Below, one piece after another: positions 1 through 57,660 of a stretch of DNA of 57,660 nt. The first letter of the stretch is position 1, and every line of letters begins with the position of its first letter. Below the pieces are notes generated by a model that was not told where the DNA came from, did not search any database, and worked only from the letters and a program-made list of their open reading frames with translations. The stretch comes from an uncultured bacterium (GTDB taxonomy: Bacteria; Cyanobacteriota; Vampirovibrionia; Gastranaerophilales; Gastranaerophilaceae). The stretch lies in contig CASFGU010000020.1 in assembly GCA_949294395.1 (NCBI GenBank), forward strand, positions 1-57,660, written 5' to 3'. The position numbers and the translations under genes were made by a program.

Positions 1-28
1 AAATCCTTGCTATACTTGCGTTTTCCAT
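1..28 (-). CDS. 5' end of a prepilin-type leader ORF (runs off the left edge)
   Basis: On the minus strand an AAAGGAG Shine-Dalgarno is followed 8 nt later by ATG GAA AAC GCA AGT ATA GCA AGG ATT, cut by the window edge. The same start, with nearly the same first codons, occurs at 26408 and 57428. At 57428 it leads through a poly-G tract to a prepilin-like gene. I infer that another prepilin or leader ORF continues to the left. Only nine codons are visible, so its product is unknown. Confidence 0.4.
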
Positions 29-70
29 CGTTTAATCTCCTTTGCTTTTTCTTTTTTATTACTTTTCTTT

Positions 71-148
71 GGAATATCTATATATGTTTTCGAGACGTTA
101 GCGGGAGCAGAGCGGAAGCGTGTTCGAGAAAACATTTATAGATATTCC
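71..148 (+). repeat. Core-hairpin repeat, copy 1
   Basis: The arms GGAATATCTATA and TATAGATATTCC pair across a conserved core containing GCGGGAGCAGAGCG. The core recurs at 6067-6147 (inverted), 26449-26526, 26746-26804, 49162-49237 and, degenerate, 33554-33602. The arm sequence differs between loci but stays self-complementary. Confidence 0.75.
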
Positions 149-548
149 TCTTCGTGTACTCTTTCTTTTTGAGATCCTGAAACAAGTTCAGGATGACATA
201 TACTTTTTTTATGACACTGCTTTCTGAGCCTGACCTGAATTTAGTTCAGGGATGACATATAACTTTTATTTTGTCATGCTGAATTTAGTTGCCTTCTTTT
301 GCCGAAAACTTGTTTTTCGTGCAAAATGGCTCCCGGTGACAGCATCCCTTTGGCTTTCCGCTGACCTTTTTATTATAAACTATTTTTTTACAATTTTCAA
401 GCTAGTGCCGGCAATCAGTCGCCAAGCCTCCGCCCTCAGCTCGCTCGCGCAAATATTAATTTTTTGTTTATTTTTTAAGGGTTTGTCGAAAACAGTGTTA
501 TAAATAATAGTATAAATAAGCAAATTATTTAAGAAAAGGAGATTATAA

Positions 549-2452: not shown

Positions 2453-3208
2453 CTAACATTTTTTCTTGCCGTTCCATGAAAGGTCTTTGCACTTCAGATA
2501 ATCCATATTTTCATTCATTATTACCCATGCCGTGCAGCCAGCACCTTTTGTAGAACAGCCTGAAAAAGGCCACATCGTTTCGTGTTCTGTTCCTGCGGGC
2601 ATAATATTTTTGTCTGTCAGATAAAACAGGAAAAAATCTCTACCAAATGTATTCGGAGCTTTTGGCCCATTTATATCAATGTAAATAATAGCATAAGTTT
2701 CGCTTAACACTCCCGGCCCTCTGTTGACGACAGCACTACCTCCGTTAGCAATAACCATGACAGAGCTCCCGTCCAGCATTAAAGAGGATGACGTTTGGGC
2801 TGATGAACCCACTATAGTTAAAGCGCGACTACCGTCTATAAAATAATAAGCAGCACCCAGCCCGCAGGCACTCTGGTCTTTTGCATTATCACAGTTTTCA
2901 ACATTTTTTACATTTTCAAAAAGTCTATCTCTGATAAGAATAGAATTTACTGCAGTATAACTTTCCTCATCCTCATCGGGATTTCCGGCATCACGGCCGG
3001 TAATACCCCATTCAGAAGGCGAACCGTACTTCTGCGTTGCAGATAAGTAACTCTGGGAAAGAATACTATAAAATTTCTTTAGTTTGGTAACAGTTTCCTT
3101 TTCTTTATATTTATTTACAACCGTTGGCAGTGTCATGGCTGCCACAACACCTATTATACCGAGAGTTATCAAAACTTCTGCAAGCGTAAATGCTTTTTTA
3201 AAATCCAT
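2453..3208 (-). CDS. Type IV prepilin-like protein A
   Basis: Class III signal peptide MDFKKA followed by FTLAEVLITLGIIGVVAAM, the hydrophobic N-terminal helix of type IV pilins and type II pseudopilins with Glu5 present; Ala replaces the usual Gly at the cleavage site. The periplasmic or surface domain is about 220 residues, contains several Cys, and ends with a family motif DINGPKAPNTFGRDFF before a Cys-rich tail. The start at 3208 is chosen because AAAGGGA lies just upstream and the prepilin motif begins there; an open frame continues to 3412 but has no support. The gene is divergent from an XRE regulator. The exact role (pilus, competence or secretion) cannot be told. Confidence 0.85.
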   Translation of the reverse strand: MDFKKAFTLAEVLITLGIIGVVAAMTLPTVVNKYKEKETVTKLKKFYSILSQSYLSATQKYGSPSEWGITGRDAGNPDEDEESYTAVNSILIRDRLFENVKNVENCDNAKDQSACGLGAAYYFIDGSRALTIVGSSAQTSSSLMLDGSSVMVIANGGSAVVNRGPGVLSETYAIIYIDINGPKAPNTFGRDFFLFYLTDKNIMPAGTEHETMWPFSGCSTKGAGCTAWVIMNENMDYLKCKDLSWNGKKKC

Positions 3209-25580: not shown

Positions 25581-26207
25581 TTAATAATCCATTTTTCCAT
25601 TCTGCAGTATATATGCGGCTCTGCCCCAGTCCGCCGTCATATTTGCTATTGTTTTTTCGGAACCTCTGGCAATAAAAGCATCTTTTGTTATATAAAAATC
25701 AAAAATATCTCTGCCGACAACATTCGGTTTTTTAATCCCGTTTAAGTCAACACGGATTCTGCCGCAGCCGATAGGCTCTTTTAATTCAGTCGCAGAATCA
25801 CAACTTTCACTCATAAAATAAAACATCATAGATGTACCGCTTGGCAAAATAAGACTTGATGATTGTGATTCTGATGAAGTAACTTTTGAACCGTTTGTGT
25901 AGTACCAGTCTTTTGCCCAGCATTTACCTAATGTTGTACCAACATCACAAACCTTCACTTTTTTCATATATTTTGCAAATAATGCTGTATAATCCGCCTC
26001 TGATTTGCACAATCCCTCAAATGTTCCGCCGTTGTCAGCCTTTATCTTCATATACACCTGTGAAAGCTCTGAATACACTTTTTTAAAAGAAGTTACTAAT
26101 TCCTGATTTTGCGTCTTATTAACAAGCGCCGGCAGCGTCATCGCCGCAACAACACCGATAATCCCAAGGGTAATCAGAACTTCCGCCAGTGTGAATCCTT
26201 TCTTCAT
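25581..26207 (-). CDS. Type IV prepilin-like protein B
   Basis: 208 residues: signal MKKG, then FTLAEVLITLGIIGVVAAM, a C-terminal domain with about six Cys, and the shared DLNGIKKPNVVGRDIFDFYI motif. AAAGGAG lies before the ATG. It has its own TTGAAA/TATAAT promoter (26262-26234). About 150 bp upstream lies an orphan prepilin leader cassette, separated by a hairpin. Unlike four others in the window it has no divergent regulator. Confidence 0.87.
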   Translation of the reverse strand: MKKGFTLAEVLITLGIIGVVAAMTLPALVNKTQNQELVTSFKKVYSELSQVYMKIKADNGGTFEGLCKSEADYTALFAKYMKKVKVCDVGTTLGKCWAKDWYYTNGSKVTSSESQSSSLILPSGTSMMFYFMSESCDSATELKEPIGCGRIRVDLNGIKKPNVVGRDIFDFYITKDAFIARGSEKTIANMTADWGRAAYILQNGKMDY

Positions 26208-26233: not shown

Positions 26234-26262
26234 ATTATATCTTATAACTTGTATTTTTTCAA
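26234..26262 (-). promoter_or_regulatory. Promoter of prepilin B
   Basis: On the minus strand TTGAAA (26262-26257), 17-bp spacer, TATAAT (26239-26234), upstream of AAAGGAG and the ATG at 26207. Confidence 0.75.
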
Positions 26263-26297
26263 TCTATAAATTATTATTTATTACTTTTATATACGAT

Positions 26298-26331
26298 AAA
26301 AAGCAGCCAATTAATATCGACTGCTTTTTAT
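26298..26331. terminator. Hairpin between the orphan leader cassette and prepilin B
   Basis: AAAAAGCAG and CTGCTTTTT pair around a 16-nt loop, with A and T runs. It would stop transcripts from the cassette before prepilin B. Confidence 0.7.
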
Positions 26332-26360
26332 ACTTTAAAAACCTTTGTATGGAGCTTAAA

Positions 26361-26740
26361 CTACTTGCCCCCCCCCCCCCGAAATCCTTGCTATACTTGT
26401 GTTTTCCATTGTTTAGTCTCCTTTACTTTTTATATCTTTACTTTTTCTGGAATATCTATATATGTTTTCGAGACGATAGCGGGAGCAGAGCGAGAGCGTG
26501 TTCGAGAATACATTTATAGATATTCCTCTTGGTGTACTCTTTCTTTTTGTGATCCTGAATCAAGTTCAGAGCCTGCCCTGAATTTACTTCATGGATGACA
26601 ATGTTTTATTTTGTCATGCTGAATTTATTTGCCTTCTTTTGCCGAAAACTTGTTTTCGTGCAAAATGGCTCACGGTGACAGCATCCCTTTGGCTTTCCTA
26701 TGTCTTTTTTTATTATATCAAATCTTCCGTTTCTTTTCAA
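26361..26740 (-). repeat. Prepilin leader cassette, copy 2 (orphan)
   Basis: On the minus strand: TTGAAA/TATAAT with a 17-bp spacer (26740-26712), hairpin repeats including a core hairpin, AAAGGAG, ATG at 26408, MENTSIARI and a run of 13 G (26380-26368). Homology to copy 3 ends at GGAGCTTAAACTACTTG. With 13 G the ATG frame reads GGGG-QVV and stops; no prepilin frame follows. Together with nearby hairpins it explains why 26208-26943 holds no gene. Confidence 0.7.
26449..26526 (+). repeat. Core-hairpin repeat, copy 3
   Basis: The same arms as copy 1 (GGAATATCTATA / TATAGATATTCC) around the GCGGGAGCAGAGCG core, inside leader cassette copy 2. Confidence 0.75.
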
Positions 26741-42471: not shown

Positions 42472-43149
42472 ATGAACAAGAAAGCTTTTACTTTAGCAGA
42501 GGTTTTAATTACGCTTGGTATAATCGGGGTAATCGCGGCAATGACCCTGCCGGCACTGATTAACCGTACACAGGGAAAGGAGCTTGAGGCAGGGCTAAAA
42601 AGAGCTTATTCTCTAATACAAAATGCAATCAACAAAATGAATTACGATGAAGGACAGATTGTTAATGCAGCTAATTACAAAGATACAGGAAATTTTATGG
42701 AAGTTTTCAAAAAATATTTTAAACTATCTAAAGACTGCGGCAGGTCATCCTGTGAATCTCAGGAAAGTTTAGAAAACGCACAATTAGGTTCCATAAACTA
42801 TAAGTCTTATACTAATATACCGGTAGGAACAGGTTTATTGGATGACGGTCAGGCAATCACAATAGACGGAATGTTCTTTATGATTGAAAACAACCCTCAA
42901 TCTGACAAAAACTGGCTTTTTATTTCTGTTGACGTAAACGGTGTACATAAAAAACCTAACCGCTGGGGACACGATTTATTTACTTTTCAGATACTGGACA
43001 ATGGCAGGCTTGTTCCGATGGGGGCACAAGACACTGTATACCGTGATGATATATATTGCTCCCACAGAGAGTACTCAAATATTAACGGCATAGGCTGCAC
43101 CTACAAAGCGCTCACGGAAAAAGATTACTTCAAAAATCTCCCGAAATAA
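42472..43149 (+). CDS. Type IV prepilin-like protein C
   Basis: 225 residues: MNKKA, then FTLAEVLITLGIIGVIAAM, Cys residues in the globular part, the VDVNGVHKKPNRWGHDLF motif and the end TYKALTEKDYFKNLPK. AAGGAGGGG lies 3 nt before the ATG. It is a close paralogue of prepilin D (45158): both have NRTQGKELEAG after the helix, and their last 14-15 codons are nearly identical. Divergent from an RHH regulator. Confidence 0.88.
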   Translation: MNKKAFTLAEVLITLGIIGVIAAMTLPALINRTQGKELEAGLKRAYSLIQNAINKMNYDEGQIVNAANYKDTGNFMEVFKKYFKLSKDCGRSSCESQESLENAQLGSINYKSYTNIPVGTGLLDDGQAITIDGMFFMIENNPQSDKNWLFISVDVNGVHKKPNRWGHDLFTFQILDNGRLVPMGAQDTVYRDDIYCSHREYSNINGIGCTYKALTEKDYFKNLPK

Positions 43150-45157: not shown

Positions 45158-45847
45158 ATGAATAAAGGATTTACACTTGCAGAAGTGTTAATAACTCTCG
45201 GTATAATAGGAGTAGTTGCCGCAATGACCCTGCCGGCTCTTGTCAACCGGACACAGGGAAAAGAGCTTGAAGCCGGATTTAAAAAATCTTATTCTGTGCT
45301 TTCTCAGGCGGTACAGCGTATGCAATATGAAGAAGGACTTTCAGGGAATTGGGAAGACGAATTCGGGGCAAATACATTTTTACCGGTGTTAAAAAAATAT
45401 TTGTTAAATTATGTCAAGTGCAACGGGAAAAATTGTGTTGATGCCGATATAACAGTTGATGGAAGTACAGTTAAACGGGTATCAACTTATAAAACGTATA
45501 ATAAATCCCAAAACGTTACGATGGAGTGGTTTGATGAAGGTCAAATGATAATGGCTGACGGAATGTTTCTGATAGTAAATAATTCAGGCAATAAATTAAA
45601 CAACCTTGTTCTTACTGTTGATGTAAACGGGATAGCGAAAAAACCTAATCTCTGGGGGCATGATCTCTTTTCATTTCAGATAAAAGGAGGCAAAGTCCTG
45701 CCGATGGGACATCCTATGACTACTATTGACGATGCAATGTGGGGAAGTATGCCATGCGATATTGCAAACACTGACAGACATAACGGTATAGGATGTGCTT
45801 ACAAAGCGCTCACTGAAAAAGATTACTTCAAAAATCTCCCGAAATAA
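45158..45847 (+). CDS. Type IV prepilin-like protein D
   Basis: 229 residues from ATG 45158, chosen because GAGG lies 7 nt upstream and the signal MNKG is canonical; ATG 45146 is in frame. FTLAEVLITLGIIGVVAAM, NRTQGKELEAG, VDVNGIAKKPNLWGHDLF and the ending AYKALTEKDYFKNLPK match prepilin C closely, so the two are recent duplicates. Divergent from an XRE regulator. Confidence 0.88.
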   Translation: MNKGFTLAEVLITLGIIGVVAAMTLPALVNRTQGKELEAGFKKSYSVLSQAVQRMQYEEGLSGNWEDEFGANTFLPVLKKYLLNYVKCNGKNCVDADITVDGSTVKRVSTYKTYNKSQNVTMEWFDEGQMIMADGMFLIVNNSGNKLNNLVLTVDVNGIAKKPNLWGHDLFSFQIKGGKVLPMGHPMTTIDDAMWGSMPCDIANTDRHNGIGCAYKALTEKDYFKNLPK

Positions 45848-50438: not shown

Positions 50439-51161
50439 ATGATTAATATATTTAACAAAAATAAGACATACATAACAAAAAAAGGATTTACTTTATCTGA
50501 AGTCTTAATAACCCTCGGAGTTATCGGAGTTGTAGCGGCTATGACACTGCCGGCATTAACAGCAAAAGTAAACCATATAATAGCAGTCAATAAATTAAAG
50601 AAAATGTATTCAACACTATCTCAGGCAATGATGTTTACAATTGCTAAAAACGGGGAATATTCCGCACTCGGAATTGTTGACGGAAATATTAACAGTATAA
50701 AAAACTGGTATAATTATTACTTAAAACCGCAGTTAAAAATAACAAAAGAGTGTCTTGATACTTCAGGCTGCTGGGCTCAAACGACAAAAACTCTTAATGG
50801 CGGCACTCCTGATTGGCACAGACCGGGTATAGGTATCGGGAATACTATCATACTGGCAACTACGGTTGACGGTTACACCATAGATATTGACGTATATGCC
50901 AGAACAGATAATAAATTCGGCGTAAATATGAAAAATGATTATGTTGCGATTTATGTTGATATAAACGGATTAAAAAAACCAAATGTAATAGGAAAAGATA
51001 TTTTCGCATTTGTTTTTAGTGAAAAAGGATTTATTCCTGCAGGACGGGATTTAAGTGATGACGAAGTTAATTTAAATTGCAGCAGCAACGGTAACGGTTA
51101 TTTCTGTTTCGAAAAAATTATGAGAAATGGTTGGAAAATTCCTGAAGAAAACAGATGGTAG
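50439..51161 (+). CDS. Type IV prepilin-like protein E
   Basis: 240 residues. A longer leader (MINIFNKNKTYITKKG) than the other prepilins, then FTLSEVLITLGVIGVVAAM with Ser in place of Ala. The globular domain has VDINGLKKPNVIGKDIFAF near the end. No Shine-Dalgarno; the -10 box ends 6 nt before the ATG, so the transcript is probably leaderless. Divergent from an XRE regulator; the pair sits between dapB and asd. Confidence 0.87.
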   Translation: MINIFNKNKTYITKKGFTLSEVLITLGVIGVVAAMTLPALTAKVNHIIAVNKLKKMYSTLSQAMMFTIAKNGEYSALGIVDGNINSIKNWYNYYLKPQLKITKECLDTSGCWAQTTKTLNGGTPDWHRPGIGIGNTIILATTVDGYTIDIDVYARTDNKFGVNMKNDYVAIYVDINGLKKPNVIGKDIFAFVFSEKGFIPAGRDLSDDEVNLNCSSNGNGYFCFEKIMRNGWKIPEENRW

Positions 51162-56596: not shown

Positions 56597-57349
56597 TTAG
56601 AAATCAAACTTTTCGCCGACGCTGTAATCCGTATAAGACATCTCGCCTCCGGATAAAATACTCTTTAAGGAATCTCCGCCGGTTTTTGACCATTCGTGGA
56701 TTTCTATATCGGATAAAGTTCCGTTAACCCTAAATACATCTCTGCCAAACTGATTTGGAAGTTTAGAACCGTTTATATCAAAATATATCGCAGCACAAAA
56801 GTAGGCAGTATAATCAAAATATAAAGGATTGCCGTCCTCGTCCTTTTTGATATTGCCGTATTCATCCTGCTGAACCTGATGAATACTTTGCTCACAGGAT
56901 GTATACTGCTGTATTGCAAGCAATGTTCCGTCACTTAGTATAATTCTGGCAGCAGGAAGTGACATATCTTTGCCGGCACCATCTTCATCAACCCACAAAC
57001 TGTTATACTTTACTTTGTAGTCATAGAAAGGCGCACATCCCTTCTGATTTTTACTGCGGCATATTTTTGCTCCGTTAAAATATTTCGCAAACTTTTCAGT
57101 AACCTCATTGGAAGATTTTGCTACATCCCATAATCCTGTAGAATCGCCCGGAGAACTATTCTTTGCCTGATAAAGCTGAACGGCCTGTGATATTGCAGAA
57201 TAAGCCTTTTTAGCACGTGTTGCAAGTTCCTTATCTTTATATTTTGTAATAAGCGAGGGTAACGTCATCGCGGCAACAACACCGATAATCCCGAGGGTGA
57301 TGAGGACTTCTGCCAACGTAAAGGCTTTGCCGCTCTCGGCTGCCTGCAA
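56597..57349 (-). CDS. Type IV prepilin-like protein F, probably phase-variable
   Basis: The certain part is 250 residues from a TTG at 57349: LQAAESGKA, then FTLAEVLITLGIIGVVAAM, several Cys and the FDINGSKLPNQFGRDVF motif. That TTG has no good Shine-Dalgarno. Upstream, AAAGGAG and ATG at 57428 read MENAGIARVY into a run of 11 G (57398-57388), then stop at TAG 57383-57381. With 10 or 13 G the frame is open from the ATG through GGGASSLSSLTGTEQG into the prepilin, giving a leader of about 35 residues before FTLAEV. The gene is therefore probably OFF in this sequence. Confidence 0.8.
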   Translation of the reverse strand: MQAAESGKAFTLAEVLITLGIIGVVAAMTLPSLITKYKDKELATRAKKAYSAISQAVQLYQAKNSSPGDSTGLWDVAKSSNEVTEKFAKYFNGAKICRSKNQKGCAPFYDYKVKYNSLWVDEDGAGKDMSLPAARIILSDGTLLAIQQYTSCEQSIHQVQQDEYGNIKKDEDGNPLYFDYTAYFCAAIYFDINGSKLPNQFGRDVFRVNGTLSDIEIHEWSKTGGDSLKSILSGGEMSYTDYSVGEKFDF

Positions 57350-57387
57350 CCCTTGTTCTGTGCCGGTTAAGGAGCTTAAACTACTTG

Positions 57388-57398
57388 CCCCCCCCCCC
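57388..57398. repeat. Homopolymer tract, 11 C (G on the coding strand)
   Basis: Eleven consecutive C on the plus strand lie between the leader ATG and the prepilin frame. The paralogous tract at 26368-26380 has 13. Such tracts change length by slippage during replication. Confidence 0.9.
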
Positions 57399-57619
57399 GT
57401 AAACCCTTGCTATACCTGCGTTTTCCATTGTTTAATCTCCTTTGCTTTTTTTCTTCTTCTTTTTTTTGAGATCCTGAAACAAGTTCAGGATGACAGATAC
57501 TTTTTTATGACACTGCTTTCTGAGCCTGCCCTGAATTTAGTTCAGGGATGACATAATGTTTTATTTTGTCATGCTGAACTTGTTTCAGCATCTCTTTGAC
57601 TTTCCACTGTCTTTTTTTT

Positions 57620-57648
57620 ATTATATCAAATCTTCCGTTTCTTTTCAA
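57620..57648 (-). promoter_or_regulatory. Promoter of leader cassette copy 3
   Basis: TTGAAA (57648-57643), 17-bp spacer, TATAAT (57625-57620) on the minus strand. The same pair with the same spacing occurs at 26740-26712 and 400-372. Confidence 0.75.
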
Positions 57649-57660
57649 CCTGTAAAAACT

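Follow-up and report, generated by a model that had tools for sequence, protein, structure and literature searches.

Out-of-frame poly-G tracts in a shared start module suggest phase variation of a large type IV prepilin family in Gastranaerophilaceae

A large family of type IV prepilin genes in an uncultured member of the Gastranaerophilaceae is probably subject to slipped-strand phase variation at DNA poly-G tracts, with an OFF default that appears to be selected. This gut bacterium, a relative of the cyanobacteria, probably has most of its many pili off at any time, single members being switched on by loss or gain of a G. Here, we describe the anatomy, copy number, frame statistics, conservation, and shuffling of the module that bears these tracts. 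The window that we analyzed is an entire contig (C20; 57,660 nt) of a 2.11-Mb genome assembled in 71 contigs, for which the original prediction was a mobile expression cassette for prepilins at three loci. The decisive element is a poly-G tract directly after MENxSIAR, together with the reading frame behind it.

Results

Three copies of a start module. Inspection of the sequence confirmed that all three predicted minus-strand loci carry a TTGAAA-17-TATAAT promoter, a hairpin-rich leader, AAAGGAG, ATG, and a MEN(A/T)(S/G)IAR start (Table 1). Their middle is a mosaic, as was also proposed: alignment yields common blocks plus insertions, the Shine-Dalgarno sequence (SD) and start region are kept, and the copy 1 promoter has diverged. 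The leaders of the three copies are mosaics of palindromic repeats that fold more stably than dinucleotide shuffles (z = −7.3, −3.4, and −4.2 for copies 3, 2, and 1, respectively); that of copy 3 is predicted to form one long hairpin, leaving SD and ATG free. Comparison of copy 3 and its 3′ region with known RNA families gave only sub-threshold chance matches. The repeated unit is beyond chance, because 8-G runs exceed the shuffle level (10 overlapping matches versus 0.45 expected) and because the 291-nt unit has 92 matches, partial or full, within its own genome. The promoter-leader described earlier is thus the front of a larger unit; what that description omitted is the poly-G tract and the frame behind it. 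This pure tract directly follows MENAGIARVY or MENTSIARIS and is succeeded by CAAGTAGTTTAAGCTCC.

Table 1. Features of the three module copies in the window
Feature	Position	Strand	Basis
Copy 1 promoter TTGAAA-17-TATAAT, diverged spacer	372..400	-	sequence
Copy 1 hairpin-rich 5′ leader	44..364	-	RNA fold z −4.16
Copy 1 SD (AAAGGAG..ATG, 26-43), ATG, MENASIARI start	1..43	-	sequence
Copy 2 promoter TTGAAA-17-TATAAT	26712..26740	-	sequence
Copy 2 hairpin-rich 5′ leader	26425..26704	-	RNA fold z −3.38
Copy 2 SD and ATG	26407..26424	-	sequence
Copy 2 poly-G tract, G13, 29 nt past ATG	26368..26380	-	sequence
Copy 2 truncated SSLSSIQRFLKYKKQS... frame, 33 aa and stop, unfused to pilin	26264..26365	-	
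Terminator-like hairpin and T-run after copy 2 short ORF	26296..26330	-	read by eye
Separate promoter TTGAAA-17-TATAAT of prepilin downstream of copy 2	26234..26262	-	sequence
Prepilin MKKGFTLAEVLITLGIIG..., own start, ORF without poly-G	25581..26207	-	PF07963, 25.7 bits
Copy 3 sigma-70-type promoter TTGAAA-17-TATAAT	57620..57648	-	exact match, spacer 17
Copy 3 5′ leader, palindromic repeats	57444..57612	-	repeat units; RNA fold z −7.26
Copy 3 Shine-Dalgarno AAAGGAG and ATG	57426..57443	-	sequence
Copy 3 ORF in ATG frame, MENAGIARVYGGGGK*	57381..57428	-	sequence
Copy 3 poly-G tract, G11, 30 nt past ATG	57388..57398	-	sequence
Copy 3 open frame SSLSSLTGTEQGLQAAESGK-AFTLAEVLITLGIIG..., leader and prepilin, +1 to ATG	56597..57385	-	262 aa

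In copy 3, the +1 frame reads SSLSSLTGTEQGLQAAESGK-AFTLAEVLITLGIIGVVAAMTL..., a 262-aa leader-plus-prepilin that is out of frame with the ATG; with 10 Gs, ATG and prepilin would form a single frame of 277 codons, stop included. The contig ends ∼28 nt into the copy 1 ORF, so that its tract and downstream gene would lie outside the contig. In copy 2, the SSLSSIQRF frame ends, and the prepilin downstream has its own promoter, SD, and ATG; this promoter and the terminator-like hairpin before it rule out that copy 2 simply serves to express that pilin. Its arrangement, a short unfused SSLSS frame, recurs in five other copies from two genomes (L025, L026, L121, L122, and L124). The contig holds six prepilin-like genes in all, at 2456-3190(−), 25584-26195(−), 42487-43146(+), 45170-45844(+), 50487-51158(+), and 56600-57322(−).

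As for the prediction of an expression cassette for prepilins, its second half is borne out: copies with a readable downstream gene lead to prepilins, with a homopolymer between the start and FTLAEV, and neither unrelated downstream genes nor loss of SD/ATG was found in the class. The expression half is only partly right, because the tract puts most prepilins out of frame with the cassette ATG and because the copy 2 pilin has a promoter of its own.

The product and its assembly machinery. The encoded proteins have the N-terminal methylation/cleavage motif of type IV prepilins, [G/A]-F-T-L-x-E, with a hydrophobic helix behind it (3-55 in copy 3), and FTLxEVLIT is invariant in 20 aligned prepilins. 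The N_methyl motif of copy 3 scores 19.3 bits, just below the PF07963 cut-off of 21.2. AlphaFold models its mature pilin (pLDDT 81.6) as a 53-residue N-terminal helix with a beta-rich head. Sequence matches of copy 3 in the PDB are pilins and pseudopilins with weak E-values, and its top VIA-align rows are type IV pilins, also weak (Z = 4.0 and 3.8); a Foldseek search of the mature pilin against the PDB gave nothing significant. The genome encodes T2SSE-type ATPases (type IV pilus/secretion-type) and a prepilin peptidase (Peptidase_A24).

Copies and leaders within the genome. The genome (G000) has 72 tracts of at least nine Gs and 129 PF07963 prepilin (N_methyl) motifs in 2.1 Mb. GCAAGTAGTTTAAGCTCC occurs 21 times (≤2 mismatches, any tract length). 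All 16 SSLSSL-type copies with a readable tract are out of frame, with either G11 or G12. A second cassette class, M(Q/E)NT(V/T/I)IASKLR(R)-GGG... (for example, MQNTVIASKLR-GGG), also leads to prepilins. The start MLKFNDSNAF is joined to the usual 3′ part in L138 of genome G008 and in L027, a poly-G ORF with the common SSLSS part on contig C40, which carries mutS.

Leaders as long as 139 and 183 codons separate the tract from FTLAEV (L022 and L029). Eleven long leaders from G000 and G008, which were chosen for being fused (several broken copies are also known), have no stop in 1,285 codons of the pilin frame versus 84 and 60 stops in the other two frames. Thus, the frame behind the tract is kept for translation despite its wrong phase in most assemblies. 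Broken leaders were found in 4 of 5 interrupted-tract copies (G008) versus 6 of 26 pure-tract copies (G000 and G008; p = 0.03). Prepilin leaders in the window's genome (L022, L029, L253, L265, and others) span 139 to ∼270 open codons, the longest being cut by contig ends; the palindromic repeats that build them recur elsewhere in the examined loci, on both strands.

Spread in the family. The pattern SD-N(4-14)-ATG-N(24-34)-G9 is present in 49 of 146 family genomes, while the reversed pattern has ∼0 matches; in a sample of 22 genomes from the rest of the order, only one (G053) had such poly-G ORF starts. The tracts are pure G, lie about 24 to 40 nt past the ATG, and, as at slipped-strand contingency loci, set the frame by their length, which ranges from 8 to 15 among paralogs. 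Also as at such loci, the genes concerned encode surface structures, namely prepilins and surface-glycan enzymes. Tracts of at least nine Gs number 51 to 91 in six start-rich genomes (1.6 to 2.1 Mb) and 0 to 9 in four other family genomes. The N-terminal codons vary between genera; the tract position and the downstream prepilins recur. In comparisons between species, one of two ortholog pairs that are >90% identical differs in tract length (92% identity; G11 in L022, G12 in L137). A search of viral contigs for tract variation at the same locus yielded no match.

MutS domain I is encoded in 144 of 146 family genomes and MutL in all six genomes checked, which rules out that tracts are unstable because mismatch repair has been lost. 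Mismatch repair usually dampens homopolymer slippage, and the presence of MutS and MutL therefore speaks against phase variation.

Most copies are out of frame by one G. Across 11 genomes, a tract precedes 113 distinct prepilins, of which 17 share the frame of the ATG (p = 1.4e-5 versus one third, in a test whose copies are non-independent); ON copies are thus far below the one third expected from unbiased drift, a second point against phase variation. In genus g1, 48 of 70 copies have one G too many (frame +1), versus 35.9 expected when lengths are permuted within genomes. Since p = 0.00035 for this permutation, frame is kept better than tract length: g1 copies with an extra tail base are mostly G10, and those without it are mostly G11. 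Most copies in genera g22 and g54 are instead short of one G (12 of 17 copies in G033, 14 of 19 in G164, and 19 of 20 in G225); searches requiring nine Gs miss shorter tracts, and G7 would also be in frame in g54. In G225, 19 of 20 sampled copies are exactly G9, in the same wrong frame; this is uniform for a hypermutable tract and speaks against phase variation as well. The sole in-frame copy of the 20, L303, owes its frame to an additional A 5′ of the tract, which is still G9.

G033 also has two open frames of 775 to 794 aa with the prepilin motif behind a tract, MNIKKYEVRGGG (L259 and L263), of which one is in frame (G11) and the other out (G10). It is possible that these large proteins are pilus-tip proteins.

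The retention of frame rather than length in g1 and the uniformity of G225 would both fit RNA-level recoding, and so would the intact ORFs of out-of-frame copies. The wrong-frame tract would then be designed, and the ribosome or RNA polymerase would slip on poly-G at a set low rate; we consider this unlikely, as we do its corollary that all tract prepilins are made constantly at a low level from unchanged DNA. Such recoding would make Gastranaerophilaceae-type poly-G tracts conserved, deliberate sites, with dozens of prepilins made only via slippage in a direction fixed per genus, which seems doubtful on several grounds. The required shift is +1 in g1 but −1 in g22 and g54, and no single fixed event fits both. 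According to PMC5084427, citing Wagner 1990, G runs slip less than A/T runs in transcription. A programmed frameshift should conserve the frame relation across species; the relation found is constant within a genus and opposite between genera, and in-frame copies coexist with it, being present in most well-sampled genomes. Finally, the poly-G tracts of glycan genes in the window's genome are mostly in frame.

A glycan-gene control. Further poly-G tracts of this genome are found in GT61, GT6, GT17, FkbM methyltransferase, AlgX-like acetyltransferase, PIG-L, and ATP-grasp genes, among others; glycan and surface genes are the usual phase-variable class. Of 14 tracts in glycan/surface genes, 9 are in frame, versus 2 of 18 in prepilins (Fisher p = 0.003); for some internal tracts, we took the frame from the longest upstream open frame. 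The OFF bias is thus a feature of the prepilins in particular.

The same control bears on whether short-read assembly simply miscounts the tracts of genes that are truly in frame. The named relatives are MAGs assembled from metagenomes, many contigs end at tracts, and G tracts are hard to sequence (PMC9187656). However, G11 to G13 tracts of glycan genes from the same assembly are mostly in frame, which makes a systematic miscount of Gs unlikely and rules it out as the sole cause of the wrong frame. A miscount would also need opposite signs, +1 in one genus and −1 in the others, and G9 tracts give the same result. An assembly artefact is therefore very improbable.

G11 to G14 tracts occur in surface-glycan or other surface genes at L330, L334, L342, L343, L352, L353, L361, L362, and L367, and in the GT6 (ABO-like) glycosyltransferase gene the tract follows GALN. 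These genes look like a separate glycan phase-variation set.

Modules are shuffled among prepilins. We defined the 5′ module as the sequence that starts 25 nt ahead of the ATG and ends 45 nt past the tract. Modules are much more alike than pilin heads (median identity of 0.74 to 0.81 at the nucleotide level versus 0.27 to 0.29 at the amino acid level), and the two identities are uncorrelated in three genomes (r = −0.04, −0.03, and 0.13). All 22 pairs in G008 whose modules are ≥90% identical have heads that are <40% identical. The simplest account would be recombination of modules or gene conversion between paralogs. A transposable element would have defined ends, a target-site duplication, or a mobilizing enzyme; we noticed no such ends in the copies that we read. 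The cassette is mobile insofar as it is shuffled independently of the pilin. Transposition is unsupported, and exchange between paralogs suffices to explain the data.

Shuffled modules and pilin heads, the near-universal OFF state, and the abundance of prepilin motifs could also reflect a silent archive, in which most copies serve as recombination donors for one or a few expressed prepilins and the tract merely silences. This is improbable given that the copies retain promoter, SD, and ATG, unlike pilS-type cassettes, which are promoterless, and that ON copies are spread over several genes.

Discussion

We favor phase variation. The spread of the tract geometry, stop-free leaders, length differences, the excess of broken leaders behind interrupted tracts, glycan-gene tracts, pilus machinery, and a parallel in Bifidobacterium breve (below) all argue for it. 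The repeated unit would be the 5′ module that fronts the many paralogs of a phase-variable type IV prepilin family, ordered as a putative sigma-70 promoter, palindromic-repeat leader RNA, SD, ATG, ∼10 codons, poly-G, and an open leader fused to the prepilin. Replication slippage, presumably in the DNA of living cells, would alter the tract by one G. Translation from the ATG would then either continue into the prepilin (ON) or end after a few codons (OFF), depending on tract length; nearly all assembled copies are OFF by one G. Cells with an ON gene are expected to make its product, process it with the prepilin peptidase, and assemble it. The OFF bias appears to reflect selection, such that few of the dozens of pilins are made per cell. 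Paralogs would swap modules by recombination.

Poly-G phase variation is already known, including for pili. Campylobacter jejuni has many G8 to G11 contingency tracts per genome, mostly in surface-glycan genes; the abundance of tracts is similar here, but most of those that we looked at are prepilin starts, and mismatch repair genes are present. A close parallel is B. breve, another gut bacterium, in which pili are OFF at G11 and ON at G10 by loss of one G, with ON enriched in the mouse gut (PMC9187656). In bbr_0113 and bbr_1889, as here, an intragenic G-tract splits a pilus subunit gene, the reference is out of frame (G11), and loss of one G fuses the ORFs (PMC9187656). However, those pili are sortase dependent and involve one or two loci per genome, whereas we find type IV prepilins at tens of loci in another phylum, with the tract at about codon 10 of shuffled modules. 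Simple-sequence contingency loci of Neisseria include poly-G/C in pilus and LOS genes (PMC5084427). They share with our genes the poly-G in surface genes and frame-based ON/OFF switching but belong to different families; here, members of a large prepilin family have their tract in one repeated start module, and the default is OFF. As cited in PMC3733652, Rickettsia palindromic elements sit in ORFs. They resemble our palindromic repeats in lying in frame inside coding sequence, and differ in that ours build, in many paralogs, leaders of 60 to >180 codons that precede the site of prepilin cleavage.

A search of titles and abstracts in the open-access literature found no published account of such switches in Gastranaerophilales, Melainabacteria, or Vampirovibrionia. 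As far as that literature shows, what is new is the occurrence in Gastranaerophilales, the large scale of its use in type IV prepilins, the OFF default that appears to be under selection, the common shuffled start module, and the palindromic-repeat leaders.

If our interpretation is correct, a gut lineage that is common but little studied has, for so small a genome, one of the larger collections of poly-G switches, with most examined switches at type IV prepilin starts and an OFF default maintained by selection. Because the start is out of frame, gene callers likely miss or truncate these pilins, and current annotations probably understate the range of pili in the group. The family would also provide a natural test of why dozens of pilins stay one nucleotide from expression and of how long palindrome-built leaders are tolerated upstream of a prepilin cleavage site.
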